A DNA stretch of 64,000 nt from Phycisphaerales bacterium Planc_01 (GTDB taxonomy: Bacteria; Planctomycetota; Phycisphaerae; Sedimentisphaerales; Anaerobacaceae), in contig LVBB01000044.1 of assembly GCA_001603075.1 (NCBI GenBank), positions 1 through 64,000 of the forward strand, read 5' to 3'. How positions within the stretch are numbered: the stretch's first letter is position 1; each line of letters starts with the position of its first letter. Both the position numbers and the translations under genes were made by a program. The notes below the pieces were generated by a model. It made no database searches. It had not been told where the DNA came from and saw only the letters and a list, made by a program, of their open reading frames with translations. Positions 1,664-41,400 of the stretch are shown here, piece after piece.

Positions 1664-2764
1664 TCATTTCGTTTCGCCGGGCACAACCACAAGGTTCTCC
1701 AGAAACGTCGTCGTCGCATCCGCCACCGACAACTGCAATGATATATACCAGTTGACCCGCTCCAAAGGCGAAGCATGGCCACTGTCCCAATACCCGCCGA
1801 AGGCCTTGCTTACTAACACTGGTTGCGCCAGGAGTGCCATGGCCCTGTGGCATGCCCCCAATGCTGCCTCAGCCGAATCGTATCCCACCACATCCCCCCA
1901 GTGCGAACCAGCGCCGCCCGTTGGGTTCTGAGGTGTCCCTATCGGGTAGACACCTTTTAGTTCAACCCAGTATGGCTTACCCCATAGATCCTTCTGCGCA
2001 TAGCCCCGTGACTCCCAGTCATCCGGATCGACTTCTTCGTTGCCATTAATATCGTTATAGTCCTTGACCTCAATGAATGCCCGCCAGCCTCCACCGACAG
2101 TCGTCGCTGCGCCAGCTGCCTGCCTAGCCATGCCGACGATTCCCCCGGCCACACCGCCCATCAACTCCTGTATCGTGTGAATGGCCACGTCCCTGCCGAC
2201 ATCGTGGACGAAACCGTACACTTCAGCGGCCTGCCCCAGTAACTCGCTCCCAATATCCTTGATGTGAGTCCAATTCACCGTCATCGTCGCACCCTGGAGG
2301 TACGAGGTCGTCTCGGGGCCCTGCGAGATGGCAAGGCGCCCGGTCGCTTGGGTCAGCATAGCCGTGCCCAACGCATCAACAGCATTTACTGGGCCGTTGC
2401 CACAGTAGGCGTACATATTCATGCCATCTCCATAGCCGATGGGGTCGGTTTGGAGGAAGCGGCCGAGGGTGGGGTTGTAGTATCGGGCGCGGTAGTAGTA
2501 GAGTCCGGTTTCGGGGTCGAAACGTCGGCCGGTGAAGGCGAAGGGGTTGGGGTGGTCCGGGTCGGCGGCGCCCGGCTGGCCGTAGACGTCGTACTCATAG
2601 ACCGCTTCCGATTGATGATTGCGGATTGATGATTGACGATTCGCATGATGTAGGGTGGGCCTCGGCCCACCAATCATCTGCGCGAACCACTCCGCGTCGC
2701 CTCGCGGCGTCGGTACAGTGGGCCGGATTGTGGGAACCTCTCCACGCATGGCTTCCCTTCGCAT
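1664..2764 (-). pseudogene. Orphan C-terminal RHS core with a variable tip; N-terminus missing
   Basis: From about position 2610 downwards the reading frame encodes a classical RHS repeat-associated core: Y-E-Y-D-V-Y-G, then GRRFDPETGLYYYRARYYNP, GRFLQTDPIGYGDGMNMYAY and N-A-V-D-A-L-G. About 230 variable residues follow and match nothing I recognise. Full RHS proteins have over a thousand residues of YD repeats before this core. Here none remain, and the frame runs upstream into a simple GATT-type repeat and a palindromic repeat (2614-2672), so the apparent first 50 residues are repeat-derived. In intact systems the variable tip is a toxin and the next gene an immunity protein. The following gene is large and secreted, which does not fit that role. 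I read this as a truncated, probably silent RHS tip. Confidence 0.7.
2614..2672. repeat. GATT-type simple repeat followed by a palindromic element
   Basis: Positions 2614-2648 are a run of GATTGATGATTG-like units. They are followed directly by gtagggtgggcctcggccca (2650-2669), whose core GTGGGCCTCGGCCCAC is a 6-bp stem hairpin. A further CCGCG/CGCGG hairpin follows at about 2692. The edge sequence tagggtggg also occurs at 5864 and 25664. The repeat marks the point where RHS homology stops. Confidence 0.6.
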
Positions 2765-4592: not shown

Positions 4593-5843
4593 TCAGGTTT
4601 CATCCGGCTGCCTGGCGGCTTTGGCCTTTCGGATGGGCTTTTCCTGGAGGAATCGGCTGATGTTTCGGATCGCCTGGCGGAGGCGCTGCTCGTTTTCGAC
4701 CAGGGCGATACGGAAATACCCTTCGCCGCTCTCGCCGAAGGCCCCGCCGGGACTGATCGCGACCTCGGCGTGCTCCATCAGGTCCATCGCGAAGCCGATC
4801 GTGCCTTTGCCCCGGAGGTGCTCGTCCGGCACGCGGGCCCAGACGAACATGCCGGCGCGAGGCTTGTCCACATGCCAGCCGATGCGATCGAGGGCCTCGC
4901 AGACGACGTCGCGCCGTGTGCGATAGACCTCGTTCTGGGCCACGATGGTCTCCTCGCAGTGCCGCATGGCGATGATGCCGGCGATCTGGACCGCCTGGAA
5001 GATGCCGTAGTCGTAATAGCCTTTGATCGTGGCCAGGTAGTCGATCATCTGCCGGTTGCCGGCGACGAACCCGACGCGGAAGCCGGCCATGTTGTAGGGC
5101 TTGCTCATCGTGGTGAACTCGACGCCGACGTCCTTGGCGCCCTTGGCGGAGAGGAAACTGGGGGCCTTGTAGCCGTCGAAGACGGTCTCGCCGTAGGCGA
5201 AGTCGTGAATGACCGCGAACTTGAACCGCTTGGCCAGATCGACGACGGTCTCGAAGAAACCCTCGTCGACCGTCATGGTGGTCGGGTTGTGCGGGTAGTT
5301 GAGGATCAGCAGCTTGGGTTTGGGGAACAGATGCTCGCAGACCATCGCGATGGTGTCGAGGAACTTCTGATCGTTGCCCAGCGGCACAGTGATGACGTTG
5401 CCTCCGGCCAGGGCCACCCCGTAATTGTGAATGGGAAAGGCCGGGTCGGGGACGATGGCGGTGTCGCCGGGACCGAGAAGGGCCAGACACATGTGGCTGA
5501 ACCCTTCCTTCGAGCCGATGCAGGCCAGGACCTCATGCTCCCAGTCGAGATCGACGTTCCATTTGCGGGCGTATTTCTTCGCCATCTCGTTGCGGAGGCC
5601 CTTGATGCCCTTGCTGGCGCTGTAGCGGTGGTTGCGCGGGTCGCGGGCGGCCTCGCAGAGCTTCTCGACAACCAGTTCCGGGGCCGGGTCCGACGGGTTG
5701 CCCATGCCCAGGTCGATGATGTCGGCGCCCTGTTGTCTCTTGGCGAGCTTGAGGGCGTTGAGTCGTCCGAACAGATAGGGTGGCAATCGGGTGATTCGTG
5801 TTGCCGGCTCGATCCGGTATTCCGCATTGATGTCGTTTTGCAT
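4593..5843 (-). CDS. PLP-dependent class I/II aminotransferase, AlaC / LL-DAP aminotransferase-like
   Basis: The 416-residue product is a fold-type I aminotransferase. It shows R-I-T-R-L-P-P-Y-L-F near the N-terminus, D-L-G-M-G-N-P-S-D, the N-Y-P-H-N-P-T loop and the PLP lysine in M-S-K-P-Y-N-M-A-G-F-R-V-G-F (Lys248). These are characteristic of the AlaC (YfdZ) glutamate-pyruvate aminotransferase group, which is close to LL-diaminopimelate aminotransferases. It probably works in alanine or aspartate-family amino acid synthesis in the cytoplasm. ATG 5843 follows AGGTTGGAG; longer frames would start at or upstream of the promoter at 5932-5960. The 5' leader contains a double-palindrome repeat. 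The exact substrate cannot be read from the sequence. Confidence 0.85.
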   Translation of the reverse strand: MQNDINAEYRIEPATRITRLPPYLFGRLNALKLAKRQQGADIIDLGMGNPSDPAPELVVEKLCEAARDPRNHRYSASKGIKGLRNEMAKKYARKWNVDLDWEHEVLACIGSKEGFSHMCLALLGPGDTAIVPDPAFPIHNYGVALAGGNVITVPLGNDQKFLDTIAMVCEHLFPKPKLLILNYPHNPTTMTVDEGFFETVVDLAKRFKFAVIHDFAYGETVFDGYKAPSFLSAKGAKDVGVEFTTMSKPYNMAGFRVGFVAGNRQMIDYLATIKGYYDYGIFQAVQIAGIIAMRHCEETIVAQNEVYRTRRDVVCEALDRIGWHVDKPRAGMFVWARVPDEHLRGKGTIGFAMDLMEHAEVAISPGGAFGESGEGYFRIALVENEQRLRQAIRNISRFLQEKPIRKAKAARQPDET

Positions 5844-5860: not shown

Positions 5861-5927
5861 GATAGGGTGGGTTCCGAACCCACTCGATTTCTGTTTCTGT
5901 GGTGGGCCGGCGACCCACGCAATAGCC
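5861..5927. repeat. Double-palindrome element in the aminotransferase 5' leader
   Basis: The element starts gatagggtg and contains two hairpins, GTGGGTTCCGAACCCAC and GTGGGCCGGCGACCCAC, separated by a T-rich spacer. It shares the tagggtggg edge and two-hairpin plan with the copies at 2650, 17294 and 25663. It lies between the predicted -10 box (5932-5937) and the start codon, so it would be transcribed as a structured leader. Confidence 0.6.
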
Positions 5928-24458: not shown

Positions 24459-26261
24459 TCAGGCCGCTCTCTTCGACGGCCTTCGGGTCCTGCGCCGAGC
24501 CAGGCCAACACTGGCGGGCCCGACCAGGACGGCAACGAACGCGACGGCACAGCCGGTGTCCAGCCACTGGCCATGCCGGCTGTAGAACGTCACCCTGTTG
24601 TCTATCGGCATTTTGTCGAGGAACCATCCGGGCATTCCGGTTCGTTGCATCGCTTCCGGAGGGAATCCCTCGCTCGAAGCGATTGGTGCGTTGCGGATGC
24701 GGCCGGAAGAATCGATCAGGCAACTGATGCCTGTGTTGACGCTGCGCAGGATGGGAAGGCGGTTCTCCACCGCTCGAAACGCGCAAATTGCGGCGTGCTG
24801 GGGCAGTTCGGTGCTCGGAATCACGCGGGGCGGGTCATCCAGGAAGCGAACGAACCAGCCGTCGTTGCTGATGTTGACCAGCCAATCGACCTGTTTTCGG
24901 CCCTTCTTGTCGAGGGCGAAATTCCGGGCAACGTAGGGGATTGCGTCCTCATAACAGATGATCGTGCCGAAACGGTACGTCGATCCGGACGCCGGCGGTG
25001 CGACGTTCGGCCCGCCATCGTGAATCGGCGCGATCACCTCATAAACCGTATAGGACGTGCCGTGTTCGAGAGAGTAGTCGTAGTTGTACTGCTCGGGGGC
25101 GAAGCGTTTGAGCTGCTGGTAGAGCCAGTTGAAGCTGCGTCGGAAGGGGATGTATTCGCCGAACAGGACCAGGTGAATCTTGTCATATCGCTGCGGATCG
25201 CGCGTGCCATCGGGCCGATAAAGATAGGCGGAGTTGTATTGGCCCAGAAACAGTTCGCCCTGGGGGTCCTTCATGACCTCGCCGCCGTAGGCGCCGACGA
25301 GCAGATAGGCGGTGTCCCTGGCGTGGTTGATGAGGGCCTCGTGGAAGGCCATGTCCTCTTCGGGCGCCGGCGAGAGGTAGGGCCAGAGCTCCGGCTGCAG
25401 GAAGGCCTGGACCATCGTCTCGGGCCAGACGATCAGTTCGGCGCCGGCGGCGGCCGCCGCCCGGCTCATCACCATCAGATCGTCGAACAGTTGATCGCTG
25501 GCACTGAAGCTGCGCTTGACCGATTGCGGCACGTTCGACTGCAGCGCTGCCACCAGCGGGCCGTCCGTAACGACCTCGGCCGTCTGCCTGATGCGCCAGT
25601 GTCCGTAGGTGGCGGTTCCAGCCACGGCCAGAACTGTCGCCACCGTTCCGATGGCGATTCGCGTAGGGTGGGCACCGCACACCTTTTCTTTGGCCACGTT
25701 GTCGAGCTGGTGTGCAATGCACACCCTGCGAGTTGAAATCCACCATTGGACCCAGTCCACCACAACGCCATTGACGGTGGCGACGAGGAAGGAAACGCCC
25801 GCGACACCGAAGAGGTCGGAGATCTGGATGAACGTCAGGTTGGCGTATTGGCTATGACCGAGCAGCCGCCAGTAGAAGCCGCCCAGGGGGAAGCCCTGGA
25901 GCCGCTCGGCGCCGACAACGAGGATGGGCAGTGCCAGCGTCATCGGGACGTTCCACATCCTTGCCCAGCGAATCGCCAGGGCCAGCAGGGGCCAGAGCAC
26001 GGCTACGTACACGCCCATCGCGAACCAGCCGGGGATGGTGATGGGTGCGATCCAGTAGATATTTGCCAGCCAGTACGCCGTGCCGACCAGCCATGCGAGA
26101 ACCGCCAGCGTCCGCTGCCGGATCTCAGGTCGGCACACCAGTGCGAACGGCGCGATCGCAACCCACGCGAGGAACGACCCATTGACGGGCGCTTGGATTG
26201 CGCTCAGCAGCAAAGCCGAGACCGCCAGTGGCAGGGTCAGTGACAGAAGGCTCTTTCTCAT
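24459..26261 (-). CDS. lnt: Apolipoprotein N-acyltransferase
   Basis: The 600-residue membrane enzyme transfers the third acyl chain to lipoproteins. The N-terminal 180 residues hold several transmembrane helices and the rest a nitrilase-type domain. The catalytic triad is visible: Glu281 in V-W-P-E-T-M, Lys361 in Y-D-K-I-H-L-V, Cys436 in I-I-C-Y-E-D-A. A last helix ends the protein, as usual. Residues about 178-200 are encoded by a double-palindrome repeat (25663-25730) lying in frame in a loop near the predicted membrane-domain boundary. ATG 26261 is used because the promoter at 26357-26384 is downstream of longer starts; the ribosome-binding site is weak. Confidence 0.9.
   Translation of the reverse strand: MRKSLLSLTLPLAVSALLLSAIQAPVNGSFLAWVAIAPFALVCRPEIRQRTLAVLAWLVGTAYWLANIYWIAPITIPGWFAMGVYVAVLWPLLALAIRWARMWNVPMTLALPILVVGAERLQGFPLGGFYWRLLGHSQYANLTFIQISDLFGVAGVSFLVATVNGVVVDWVQWWISTRRVCIAHQLDNVAKEKVCGAHPTRIAIGTVATVLAVAGTATYGHWRIRQTAEVVTDGPLVAALQSNVPQSVKRSFSASDQLFDDLMVMSRAAAAAGAELIVWPETMVQAFLQPELWPYLSPAPEEDMAFHEALINHARDTAYLLVGAYGGEVMKDPQGELFLGQYNSAYLYRPDGTRDPQRYDKIHLVLFGEYIPFRRSFNWLYQQLKRFAPEQYNYDYSLEHGTSYTVYEVIAPIHDGGPNVAPPASGSTYRFGTIICYEDAIPYVARNFALDKKGRKQVDWLVNISNDGWFVRFLDDPPRVIPSTELPQHAAICAFRAVENRLPILRSVNTGISCLIDSSGRIRNAPIASSEGFPPEAMQRTGMPGWFLDKMPIDNRVTFYSRHGQWLDTGCAVAFVAVLVGPASVGLARRRTRRPSKRAA
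25663..25730. repeat. Double-palindrome element inserted in frame within lnt
   Basis: It begins gtagggtgggcaccgcacac and ends with the hairpin GGTGTGCAATGCACACC (25709-25725) followed by ctgcg. The two ends form an imperfect outer inverted repeat, GTAGGGTG against CACCCTGC. The unit is about 68 nt and keeps the lnt frame open. Copies with the same edge or plan lie at 2650, 5861 and 17294. Confidence 0.65.
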
Positions 26262-26356
26262 CGAAGACGGCAGTCCATGCCAAACCGGCGCAGTCCGATC
26301 CCGCGTGCGATTGCTGCGCCGCACAGAATTCGGTTCTTCAGATCGATCATGGGCGT

Positions 26357-26384
26357 ATTCTACCGTCGCGCGGGACACTGGCAA
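26357..26384 (-). promoter_or_regulatory. Sigma70-like promoter of lnt
   Basis: On the minus strand: TTGCCA (26384-26379), 16-nt spacer, TAGAAT (26362-26357). It lies just downstream of the strong hairpin that ends the LamG gene transcript. Confidence 0.55.
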
Positions 26385-26428
26385 GCCCAATCGTCGCGTC
26401 GCTCAGGCGCCCGTCGCCGGATGGAACC

Positions 26429-35835: not shown

Positions 35836-38163
35836 ATGAAATCACTGTCTTTTTGTAACCACCGCTATTCCTGCATTTTGCGGCATTTCGATGCGGCTGC
35901 CATTCACTCGTCTGCGGCTGCCCTGCTGTTGTCGGCGGGCGTGGCGTTCCTGGCCTGGGCCGCTCCGGCCGTCGGTGCGGCTGGGCCGTTCGTGCCGCCG
36001 GCAGCGCCGGCGGTGGCGCCGGTGATCAGCGGCGTCTATCCCAACGACCTGGACGGCAATCGGATCGACGACGATCTGGACGAACTCGACGCGGCCCAAT
36101 CGTCGTCGGGATTGTTCGAGGCGGGTCGGTCCCTCGCGCCGCTTTCGGGTGCACGTGTCGTCGATGTCGAATTGATCTTTGACGAGCCGGTCACGCAGGG
36201 GCAAATCGATTCCTTCACCCGATTGGGTGGCGAGATCACCTACATGTTCCGGGCCGTCTCGTACGGCTGGAACGGCCGCATCGCCCGGGATCGCGTCGCG
36301 TCTCTGCCTTCCGCCATGGGGCCGTCGCTCGTTCTGGTGACGCCGAAGGTTCGACAGGTTCGCCTCCACATGGATCACGCCACGCAGACCGGGCGGGTGC
36401 GACCGGTCTGGCAGCCGGGATTCGCCGCCAGTGTCGCGGGATTCCGGGGCGATCCCAATACCACCATCGCCATCGTCGATACGGGAGTGGATGCCGCACA
36501 CATGGATCTGGCAGGGCGTTGTGTCTACTGGAACGACATCAGCGGTGACTACGAACCCGATCCGGTCGACTACAACGGACACGGCAGCCTCGTCGCGGGG
36601 GTGGCCGTGGGTACGGGCGACAGTGGCGGCGCCGAGCCGTTCGAGCTGCGTTATACCTATTCGGTGGACGCGTTCAGTTGGCTTCACGTTGTCGAGCCGA
36701 TCCATCTGCCGGCCGGGCCGGTCACCGTGACCTCCTCGGCCCGGTGGGATGGGCCGAGCGCCTGGCTGGACCACATCCGGTGGCGCAAGGGGACCCTGGT
36801 CGACAGTCCGCAGTGGATCGGGACCGGGGCGGAAGGGCCCGGCGGGCTGACCATCACCCACACGTTCGAGGCCGACCCGGAGTACCTGTTCGCTCCGATT
36901 CTGGCCGACTACGACGACCGCTACCTCTACAACGTCTCCGTCGTCACTCGCGTGTCGCCATATCCAGCGGTGGGTGACGGGTTCAATACGTTTTCCGGGG
37001 TTGCACCGGGTTGCATGTTCGCCGCCGTCAAGTTTGCCATGCGCAGCGGGACAACGTTCGAGGATGGTGTGGATACGGCGATCGACGATCTGGTGGCGCG
37101 CCGCAGCGAGAAGAACATCAAGATCATCAACGTCAGCGCCGGACTGGTCGATAGTTGGGGACTGCCCGCTCAGAGCGTCTCCCTGCGGGACAAGGTTTCC
37201 TCGGCGGTTCGCAGCGGTGTGATTGTTGTGGCGGCGGCGGGAAATAGCGCCGCCGATCCCTATGAACAGACCCGGCGGATGTCCGACCCGGCCCGCACCG
37301 CCCTGGCCATCACCGTCGGCGCCTCCAACGACGACAACGCCCTGACCGATTACTCCACGTACGGGTTCGCCAACCCGCGGTCGTATACGGCCGAGGATTT
37401 CAAGCCCGATCTCATCGCGCCGGGAGGTTCGTACTACCACACCGGCATCATGTCCGTCGACAGCGGCTCGACGGACGGCGGACTCGGCCCGGATATCGAG
37501 CCCGACGACTACACGGCGTCGGAAGGCACGTCCTTTGCCAGCCCGTACGTGGCGGGCTGCGCGGCCCTGGTCATCGAGGCCATGGAACGCCAGGGGACTC
37601 GGTGGGATTTCCATTCCGACCGCCATCCGAGACAAGTCAAGATGCTCCTGTGTGCGACGGCCTGTGAGACGAATGCCCCGCGTGAAAACGGACAATCGAA
37701 CCCGACGTTGCAGCGGGCCTCCGGCGGTCCGGACGGCTTTCCGGTCGGCAAAGACCGGTTTGAAGGATACGGTCTGATCAACGCGGATGCGGCGGTCGAG
37801 GCCCTTAGCCTGTCGTATACCCCCGCGACCTCGATCCGCGAGGAACTGGGATCGGGCCCCGGCGATCGTCGAGTCTGGGCCCGGACGGTCCATCTGGCCG
37901 CCGGGACCGCCTTGGACGTGATCCTGGACAACCCGGTCGAGGGAGATTTCGATCTCTATCTCTACCGCATGACTCCCAGCGCCTCGGGGACCCCGGTCCT
38001 GCTGGCCTCCAGCGCGAATCCGGGGGCCGGCGCCGGTGAATCACTCACCTACACGTCCGGCTCCGAGGCGGCCGCGCTGCTGGTAGTCAAACGGGTCTCC
38101 GGCTCCGGCCCGTTCGATCTGCACTCCGTGCAGACCGAGCCTGTGGCTGTCCTGCCCCAGTAG
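35836..38163 (+). CDS. Secreted subtilisin-like peptidase, tandem copy 1
   Basis: The 775-residue preproprotein has a hydrophobic leader, then D-L-D-G-N-R-I-D-D-D-L-D-E, a calcium-loop-like motif near residue 71. Residues about 108-180 resemble an I9-type inhibitory propeptide. The S8 domain has Asp215 (I-V-D-T-G-V-D), His249 (N-G-H-G-S-L-V-A-G), Asn470 (A-A-A-G-N-S) and Ser566 (E-G-T-S-F-A-S-P). About 315 residues separate His and Ser, including an inserted strand-rich block (about 268-375). The C-terminal 100 residues resemble a PPC domain (D-F-D-L-Y-L-Y). ATG 35836 follows AGGAGGGAG. The neighbouring gene at 38464 is a clear paralogue. Confidence 0.88.
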   Translation: MKSLSFCNHRYSCILRHFDAAAIHSSAAALLLSAGVAFLAWAAPAVGAAGPFVPPAAPAVAPVISGVYPNDLDGNRIDDDLDELDAAQSSSGLFEAGRSLAPLSGARVVDVELIFDEPVTQGQIDSFTRLGGEITYMFRAVSYGWNGRIARDRVASLPSAMGPSLVLVTPKVRQVRLHMDHATQTGRVRPVWQPGFAASVAGFRGDPNTTIAIVDTGVDAAHMDLAGRCVYWNDISGDYEPDPVDYNGHGSLVAGVAVGTGDSGGAEPFELRYTYSVDAFSWLHVVEPIHLPAGPVTVTSSARWDGPSAWLDHIRWRKGTLVDSPQWIGTGAEGPGGLTITHTFEADPEYLFAPILADYDDRYLYNVSVVTRVSPYPAVGDGFNTFSGVAPGCMFAAVKFAMRSGTTFEDGVDTAIDDLVARRSEKNIKIINVSAGLVDSWGLPAQSVSLRDKVSSAVRSGVIVVAAAGNSAADPYEQTRRMSDPARTALAITVGASNDDNALTDYSTYGFANPRSYTAEDFKPDLIAPGGSYYHTGIMSVDSGSTDGGLGPDIEPDDYTASEGTSFASPYVAGCAALVIEAMERQGTRWDFHSDRHPRQVKMLLCATACETNAPRENGQSNPTLQRASGGPDGFPVGKDRFEGYGLINADAAVEALSLSYTPATSIREELGSGPGDRRVWARTVHLAAGTALDVILDNPVEGDFDLYLYRMTPSASGTPVLLASSANPGAGAGESLTYTSGSEAAALLVVKRVSGSGPFDLHSVQTEPVAVLPQ

Positions 38164-38250
38164 ATCGGAGCATCGTGGCAGCGTGCCCACTCCAGAGCGA
38201 TACCTTTGCTGCGAACGGGAGATGTCCCCGTGACGCTGGCGAAATTCAGG

Positions 38251-38282
38251 TTGACCTGGAGGGGCAAAAAGCGTAGTATAAT
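38251..38282 (+). promoter_or_regulatory. Possible promoter of the second tandem subtilase gene
   Basis: TTGACC (38251-38256) lies 20 nt before TATAAT (38277-38282); with TAGTAT (38274-38279) as the -10 box the spacing is 17. Either way the 300-nt gap between the tandem genes probably gives independent transcription. Confidence 0.4.
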
Positions 38283-38463
38283 GGACGGGGCCGTGGGCGA
38301 TCTGTGTCACGGCCTGCGTATCTGTGAAAGAAAGCGTGAGAACGGGGGGGCTATCCGTGGCGAGGAGGCCGTATTTCGGGTCCGACGGGTTCTGCGTTCG
38401 GAGATGGTCCGAGATTCGTGACGGTATTGCATCCATTCTGTTTCATAGTGCAGCGGAGGGAGT

Positions 38464-41400
38464 ATGAGTCTGTTCAGTTCAGGCGAGAATCGGTCTACAG
38501 ATGGCACGTCCCATAGGTGTGCGAGTCGTTTCTATCGGTCTTCGTGCGTCATGGTGTGCTTGGGGCTGTTCCTGGACGCGGTGGCCGGGATGGCAAGGGG
38601 GCAGTCTCTGACGCCGCCGCCACGGCCCGATGTGCCGCCGGTGATCAGTGGAGCGTATCCGGGCGATTTGGATGGCAATCGTATCGACGATGAGCTGGAG
38701 GGCCGTATCGAGTTGTCGACGGGACCTTCCTCACTGTATCAGGCGGGCAAGTCGCTCGGTGCAGAACTGGCGAGCGAGAAACTGGTCGATGTCGAGTTGG
38801 TCTTTGACGAGCCGGTGACACAGGAGCAGATCGACGCGTTTCTTGCCATGGGTGGTCAGATCAGCTACCTGTACCAAGCCGTCTCCTATGGATGGAACGG
38901 GCGCATTGCGCTGGGTCGGGTTGAGGCGTTGCCCGCTGTCATGGGGCCGACGTTGGTTCTGGTGACTCCGGCGGCCAGGCCGGTCCAGTTGTATATGGAT
39001 CTTGCTTCACAACTCGGCCGTGTTCGTCCTGTCTGGCAGGCGGGGTTTGCCGGCTATGCCGCGGGATTCCAGGGCGATTCGAACACGACCATTGGCTTCA
39101 TCGACACCGGCATCGACAGTGCGCACGCCGATCTCTGCGGACGCTGTGTCTTCTGGGATGACGTCAGTGGCGAGCCGGAGCCCGATCCCGTTGATTACTA
39201 TGGGCACGGAAGCCGCGTGGCTGGCGTGGCCGTGGGAACGGGCCACAGCGCCGGGGCTGACAGGTCGGAGTTGAGGTACACCTACGTCGAGGACTGGCCG
39301 AGTTGGGCCCATCTCGTCGATCCGATTTCCCTGCCTGCCGGTTCGGTGACGGTGACTTCCTGGGCTTGGTGGAGCGGCCCGATCGCTTGGCTGGATCATG
39401 TGTCCTGGCAGAGAGGCAATGCCGAAATGCAGGGTCTCGAATGGATCGGAAGCGGGCGGGAAGGCTATTCCGGAATTTCCTTGACCAACACATTCTATGC
39501 GACCGCCCAGAAGATGTACTCGCCCGTGTTGGCCAACTACAACGATTCGGTTTTGGACGCCGTGGTTGTCACGACGTCGGTGACCGCTTATCCCGGCCTG
39601 GCCGATGGCTTCAACAAGTTCAGCGGTGTTGCCCCGGGCTGCAACTACGCGGCGATCAAGATCGCCACACGGGACGGAATGGTGTCCGATGACGGGTTCG
39701 CGATAGGGATCGACAGGATGGTGGTTCATCGCGTTGCTCGCAAGATTAAAGTGGTCAACATCAGCGGCGGCCTCACAGATGACTGGGGGTTTCCCATCGA
39801 AGGCGTTTCTCTCCGCGACAAGGTCATGTCGGCGGTTCGCAGCGGTGTGATTGTCGTCGCGGCCGCTGGAAACAGCGCCAATGAGTCGATCGAACTCTTG
39901 CGTCAGATGGCCGATCCGGCTCGGGCGGCTCTGGCCATCACTGTCGGAGCGTCGAACGACGAGAATTGCCTGACGGACTACTCCGGATACGGATTCCTCA
40001 GTCCGCGTCAGTACGCATCCGAAGACTTCAAGCCCGATCTCATCGCCCCGGGAGGTGATTACTACTACACGACCATCATGTCCATTGATAGCGGAACGTG
40101 CGATGGATTGAACAACCTCGACAAGGTCCCCGACGACTACAGCAGTGGGACCGGCACATCCTTCTCAAGTCCTTTCGTCGCAGGTTGTGCCGCTCTTGTG
40201 ATTGAGGCTCTGGAGCGGACAGGAATCGAGTGGGATTTCACTTCGGACCGGCATCCTCGGCTGGTGAAGATGCTGCTGTGCGCCACCGCGACTGAGACCA
40301 ATGCCGCTCGACAGGGGGGCGATCGCAACCCCACGCTGGAGCGCGATGCCGATGGTCCGGACGGTTTCGCGGTCGGCAAGGATCGCTATGAAGGATATGG
40401 CCTGATCAATGCCGATGCGGCGATTGAGGCCGTCGGTTCTGCATACGCGCCTGGATCGTCAGTCAGCGTGGAGTTGGGCGGCGGGGTGGCAGGGCGGCGG
40501 GCCTGGGCCAGTAGGGTCAGTCTCACGGCGGGGTGCGGTATTGATGTGTCGCTGAGCAATCCGGCCGGGGCCGATTTTGACCTGTATCTCTACAGCATGA
40601 CACCGAGCAGTACAGGGACCCCTGTCATTCTGGCGTCGAGCACGACCGACCAGGCGGGCGCCGCCGAGTCGATCAGCTACACCCCACAGACCGACACCAC
40701 CGCTCTGCTGGTGGTCAAGCGTGTCTCGGGTATGGGAACGTTCCAACTCGAATCTGTGCAAGCCGGTCCGCCGATCGCCCAGAACGGGGCCATCAGCACG
40801 GGTGTGGGTTCCCCCGTGACCGTAACGCTCGTCGCTGTTGATGACGGTTCGCCCAATCCACCGGGGCAACTCACATACACCATTATGTCTTTGCCTCAAC
40901 ACGGCAGGCTGGAGCGTCTCGGCGGCTCGCCTATCACGACGGCTCCGGCGATGCTGACCCAAGGAGTCAATCAGGTCATCTATCGGCCGAACGAAACCTG
41001 GCTCGGAGATGACAGCTTCACGTTCCGGGCTGACGATGGGGGTGTTGCGCCATTCGGCGGACACTCGAACGTGGCGATGGTGCGCATTTCGGTTGTCAGC
41101 CAGGTGACATCCGTCTACAAGATCGGCGCCGGCGACGATGATGCGTACGGCAGCCAGTGGAGCGCGTATCAGGACGTGAGCGATCGTGCGCTGGCATTAG
41201 GCGAATTCACGCCCGCCATGCGTTTCTGTGGCCTCGGGATTCCTCAAGGCGCCAGCATTCTGAGCGCTACGCTGAGGATATGTGCGCACCCGGGTGGACT
41301 CGCAGGACGAGTCGCAGCCCGCCTTCGAGCGGAAGCGGCAGACAACCCTGGTCCCTTCAGCAGTTCGCGACGCATCAATGCGCTGACGCTGACCCAGGCG

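Follow-up and report, generated by a model that had tools for sequence, protein, structure and literature searches.

A short palindromic repeat lies inside the gene for apolipoprotein N-acyltransferase (lnt) in the DNA analysed here, and it raises the question of how such an element came to be read as part of an essential envelope enzyme and why it has remained there. Within the window, by which we mean the whole 64,000-nucleotide stretch that was analysed, the gene and the element are laid out as follows.

24459–26390, minus strand: lnt, apolipoprotein N-acyltransferase, a 643-codon ORF counted from TTG, assigned from Pfam, NCBIfam, and orthologues
25662–25730, no strand: REPIN, made up of two GTAG-tagged hairpins in inverted orientation and read in frame within lnt, defined by repeat matches, pattern, fold, and consensus
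25663–25683, plus strand: left REP hairpin, GTAG followed by GGTGGGCACCGCACACC
25684–25708, no strand: 25-nt spacer separating the two REPs
25709–25729, minus strand: right REP hairpin, inverted, GGTGTGCAATGCACACCCTGC
25659–25730, minus strand: 24 element-derived codons, RRVCIAHQLDNVAKEKVCGAHPTR (residues 221–244), low-confidence or disordered in the structural model

The encoded protein was assigned to the Lnt family by its matches to the Pfam models LNT_N (residues 58–208) and CN_hydrolase (residues 280–566) and to NCBIfam TIGR00546 (212.4 bits against a cut-off of 132.9), and by conservation of the catalytic Glu, Lys, and Cys in an alignment. Because these residues are conserved and the dN/dS between congeners is approximately 0.2–0.25 outside the insert, we conclude that the enzyme has been kept. 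The genome contains only one lnt match, a second match being a REP-derived stretch. The likely start codon is the ATG at codon 44 (window position 26261), and the ORF is without a stop codon across the element, such that residues 221–244 counted from the TTG correspond to residues 178–201 counted from the ATG. The initial annotation had placed the element at 25663–25730 with its reading frame unbroken, which is essentially what was found, and its residue numbering agrees with the ATG start. Judged from the open frame, the protein would be made with the insert. An AlphaFold2 model of Lnt (mean pLDDT 85, pTM 0.86) matches the Escherichia coli and Pseudomonas aeruginosa Lnt structures (PDB 8b0p, 5n6h, and 5n6m; Foldseek E-value 1.4e-23), which share the same fold and the same catalytic residues; in these solved enzymes approximately nine residues join the two helices where the window Lnt has the repeat-derived loop. 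The model places the insert, with a pLDDT of about 50, between helices 191–226 and 242–273. The loop therefore adjoins the nitrilase part of the protein, as had been noted, although it joins the last two transmembrane helices preceding that domain and is not at the boundary itself. We take the loop to be cytoplasmic, following the established topology of Lnt.

The element is 69 nt long, its hairpin is preceded by GTAG, and the two REPs lie in inverted orientation and together form one larger hairpin, which is the plan of a REPIN, an inverted doublet of hairpins with a spacer (PMC3116915). In the window the tag of the right REP reads GCAG, and GTAG is retained in the congeners G001 and G005; the change is synonymous in lnt. 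Folded as DNA, the element reaches −21.2 kcal/mol (z = −3.8), with none of 200 shuffled sequences as good, and the RNA fold is approximately −62 kcal/mol over the 132-nt region. The window contains a single match to TAGGGTGGG-N40..70-CCCTGC, where 0.00 were expected. The insert-derived peptide of the window Lnt includes, for example, VCIAHQLDNVAK, and G001 has a form of its own.

When the window's own 5.65-Mb genome (G000) was searched by BLAST, the lnt element gave about 53 matches scattered over many contigs, which identifies it as one copy of a dispersed multicopy family. Full doublets are 73–80% identical to it and many single hairpins 86–100%, and the consensus of the aligned doublets, CGTAGGGTGTGCAccGCACACC-N-AGGTGTGCGnTGCACACCCTACG, consists of a hairpin, a spacer, and the same hairpin inverted. 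The initial annotation had named a lack of genomic copies as a ground for rejecting its reading, and such copies exist. It had also described intergenic copies of the same plan. This is correct for the window but thinly supported, as a repeat search there gave one clean single hairpin and one degenerate doublet:

2650–2671, plus strand: clean single REP hairpin, GTAGGGTGGGCCTCGGCCCACC
5862–5919, plus strand: degenerate REP doublet just upstream of an aminotransferase gene

A collection of phages searched for the element gave no match. Single REP hairpins are clustered on contigs C159 (8.9 kb), C30, and C122 of the genome, tens to approximately 1400 bp apart and often near contig ends.

Several Y1_Tnp proteins are encoded in the genome. 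One of the corresponding genes, on contig C139 (140175–140534), matches the RAYT family NCBIfam NF047646 with 187.5 bits (cut-off 80) and has REPs lying approximately 31 and 49 bp beyond its two ends, and a second RAYT-type gene, on contig C34 (83.9 bits), is likewise close to REPs; the genome thus carries a RAYT gene flanked by its cognate REPs. The lnt element is a GTAG-type REPIN, that is, a RAYT-associated non-autonomous mobile palindrome, and the RAYT of this genome is its probable mobiliser. In its tag, short hairpin, inverted doublets, and dispersal, and in the REP-flanked RAYT gene, the system resembles the GTAG REPs and REPINs with their RAYT/TnpA-REP enzymes described by Bertels and Rainey in 2011 (PMC3116915) and in PMC3733652 (2013). 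The palindromic elements (RPEs) of Rickettsia, which lie in frame in conserved genes and are translated (PMC10969869), had been offered as an analogy. The analogy is right in principle, as in both systems in-frame palindromes are translated as extra residues; judged against published descriptions of RPEs, of which some are about 150 bp long, the present element is not an RPE, being GTAG-tagged, 69 nt long, planctomycete, and found in a genome that also encodes a RAYT. PMC3733652 assigns RPE-4 and RPE-6 to the intragenic CGTC repeats.

Orthologues of lnt were compared in 61 and then 89 genomes, and were found in 80 of the 89 genomes of the family; these relatives are uncultured Sedimentisphaerales/Phycisphaerae (Planctomycetota), represented largely by metagenome-assembled genomes. 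In 50 of the 80 orthologues the segment between the two helices is short (36–38 residues), reading like ...AELIIAARQKKIFKISNFLKTALV..., and the REPIN insert is confined to three members of the genus, namely the window genome, G001, and G005. An alignment with orthologues from the same order, which had been suggested as the check on an insertion bounded by the element, thus shows mostly short loops in the same family and order and an element-bounded insert in one genus. The copy in G005 has perfect ends, CTCGTAGGG...CCCTACGAG. The element encodes 24 residues (about 23 had been estimated), and the net gain over short-loop orthologues is approximately 18, less than 24 since part of the native loop has been lost. 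Since the short-loop orthologues are all diverged and native loop residues have been lost, no exact insertion junction or nucleotide-level empty site was found among them.

Copies of the same REP/REPIN family were also identified in frame in lpxK (TIGR00682), queA (PF02547), and a gene with a CoaB-type DFP domain (PF04127). Long ORFs across REP copies were rejected as an indicator of coding, as they are mostly spurious in GC-rich DNA; genes were kept only if Pfam domains surrounded the insert and orthologues were available for comparison, and the in-frame copies counted are a minimum for the genome.

L244:261–1373, contig C144: queA with an in-frame REPIN
L243:762–1433, contig C109: DFP/CoaB-type gene with a single in-frame REP (RRVCTAHRSK)
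L024:1203–2315, contig C24: lpxK with an in-frame REPIN after LTRGYKA

For queA, the site is filled in the window genome and G005 and empty in G002, G003, and G004. For coaB, it is filled in the window genome and G001, degenerate in G002, and empty in G005 and G004. For lpxK, it is filled in the window genome and G002, reduced to a shortened in-frame relic in G001, and empty in G003–G005. This mosaic of filled and empty sites is the best evidence that the family is mobile, and the congeners that make it up show in-frame remodelling after insertion. In other family members, lpxK has different long inserts at this position, and LpxK may be a second hotspot.

The first hotspot is the Lnt loop itself. 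In frame in the same loop are GATTGCGGATTTCAG... in G029, GGGTGGCAGCC... in G002, CCCCGCCTACGCGGGG... in G014, and TGTCATCCTGAGCG... in G018 and G026 (separate clades on the tree). G093 and L229, which belong to different lineages, both carry CCGCCTTCGCTGAAGC... there. In five members of genus g32 (G036, G106, G108, G104, and G109) the loop is occupied by near-perfect GTAG doublets whose stems are different again. Dispersal was examined by searching nine genomes with ten inserts concatenated into one query, the counts being minima taken from the best 40 candidates per genome. The inserts of G002, G029, G036, G014, G018, G026, G109, and G093 proved to be dispersed repeats of the genomes that carry them or, in some cases, of sister genomes as well; the loop copies of G104, G106, G108, and L229 were identified by sequence alone. 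G004 has a long loop, and its insert was part of the joined query and was left out of the dispersed-repeat tally. The loop insert of G107, considered as a further repeat, is single-copy in its genome and was also left out. At least six repeat families have been captured in the loop. From repeat type and position on the tree, we judge that palindromic repeats were acquired about nine times, as a minimum, and at least 12 changes of repeat class are needed on a quick tree, on which sister species differ. Loops of this kind with unrelated DNA, which the initial annotation expected to argue against its reading, do occur in several species; as they are filled with other dispersed palindromic repeats, they do not refute insertion, and they reveal a hotspot that the annotation did not foresee. 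Tandem heptanucleotide repeats (e.g. TTCTACA and CTCGATG) are found in frame in the Lnt loop of G031, G111, G110, G072, and L229, although seven is not a multiple of three.

The concentration of palindromes in the loop was quantified by scoring inverted repeats within the conserved core of 91 lnt genes and keeping the best one from each. Ten of the 11 inverted repeats that score at least 14 fall in the loop, which makes up 4.2% of the core; with a generous 6%, the binomial p-value is approximately 6e-12, which overstates the enrichment because the rows are non-independent, although several lineages contribute. The one exception, in G083 (L138), is a ATACGCAATACGCAATACG-type palindrome in the loop that joins membrane helices one and two of Lnt (approximately nt 71–156 of the ORF). 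As a control, none of 30 orthologues of the aminotransferase gene at window 4596–5819 reaches an inverted-repeat score of 11. This gene was chosen before its orthologues were looked at, and as it is more conserved than lnt, what it controls for is the background level of palindromes rather than tolerance. The Lnt loop is a hotspot, a recurrent in-frame landing site for unrelated mobile repeats.

Very probably, then, a mobile REPIN inserted in frame into an ancestral lnt, was translated, and was kept through the tolerance of a loop that repeatedly captures repeats. The sequence of events would be that a GTAG-type REPIN, of the kind that RAYTs are thought to move, entered lnt in the ancestor of at least three Sedimentisphaerales congeners, landing in a stop-free frame in the loop that joins the final two helices ahead of the nitrilase domain. 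It would have been translated as approximately 24 loosely ordered residues and retained because the loop tolerates extra residues while the enzyme is under purifying selection. More generally, the palindrome would insert widely; copies that break essential genes would be lost, and tolerated in-frame copies in loops would stay and be translated. The permissive Lnt loop would keep collecting and exchanging repeats, with a turnover that would be fast, since sister species carry different repeats. That the loop might tolerate extra residues had been raised at the outset, and it remains the best explanation in light of the low pLDDT of the insert, the short-loop orthologues, and the recurrent filling. 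Loops and linkers have likewise been argued to be possible sites of tolerance for in-frame REPs (PMC3733652). The insert itself is presumably neutral.

It is improbable, by contrast, that the insert has a selected function, whether as a basic cytoplasmic peptide (a possible metal site through CxxH, or a topology signal) or as a ribosome-pausing mRNA hairpin between the helices. Between the window genome and G005 the insert differs by four synonymous and no nonsynonymous changes, all in the arms, which fits in-frame translation and, given such small numbers, may hint at constraint on the arms or the peptide; the spacer of the G001 insert has three nonsynonymous and no synonymous changes. Every palindromic insert peptide tested has a net charge of 0 to +5, but the other open frames that these elements offer are in many cases equally basic, and a comparison of the frame used by each insert with the most basic or most hydrophilic open frame gave no consistent signal beyond the absence of stops. 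Strong hairpins of unrelated families do occur at the same codons; however, non-palindromic heptamer repeats fill the loop too, most orthologues are without an insert, and the peptides of different families have no common sequence, the two CxxH motifs in the peptide of the window copy not being retained in other copies. We likewise give a small chance to the idea that the loop is a standing landing pad that recruits useful repeat peptides or mRNA hairpins, for example to make translation pause ahead of the periplasmic domain or to act as a basic tether in the cytoplasm; were it true, an essential membrane enzyme would be drawing exchangeable parts from mobile repeats.

A target preference of RAYT-like transposases, such as for single-stranded or CT-containing DNA, in place of loop tolerance, is an unlikely cause of the hotspot. 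TnpA-REP enzymes cleave at CT beside REPs (PMC8266576), and the lnt copy of G005 is bounded by CT...AG, but a single preference would not predict that at least six unrelated families, some of them not GTAG REPs, and tandem heptamers share one loop. That lnt is decaying or mis-assembled, such that the insert means little, is very unlikely: the related genomes are largely metagenome assemblies, but the same insert lies in open lnt frames of three separate assemblies, and the sole lnt match in the genome has intact active-site residues and is under purifying selection. Finally, that there was no insertion and a native loop resembles the repeat by chance or convergence is hardly credible, since, even with a junction that cannot be drawn and diverged flanking loop residues, the 69-nt doublet matches a genome-wide family (E-value 1.7e-9 to the next full copy) and orthologues exist without it.

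In-frame REPs and RPEs are already known, and the multi-family hotspot in Lnt is what is new. Intragenic GTAG and CGTC repeats encoding 20–30 residues are reported from several species in PMC3733652, including different REPs that two Xanthomonas species carry at nearly the same position in recB; many unrelated families in one Lnt loop go beyond that single example there. The main text of PMC3733652 does not include lnt as a target, and in the main texts of the part of the literature covered we found nothing linking in-frame REPs or RPEs to lnt. Mobile palindromes thus become protein in a lineage far from Rickettsia, here as part of an essential envelope enzyme, and a RAYT in the same genome offers an explanation of how they move. 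One loop filled by unrelated families offers a testable natural experiment on the tolerance and remodelling of inserted selfish DNA, and Lnt, lpxK, queA, and coaB provide filled, partly deleted, and empty states within one genus.

Elsewhere in the window (35994–40094), a gene-sized unit is present in two tandem copies, 2.6 kb apart and 72–88% alike in stretches.
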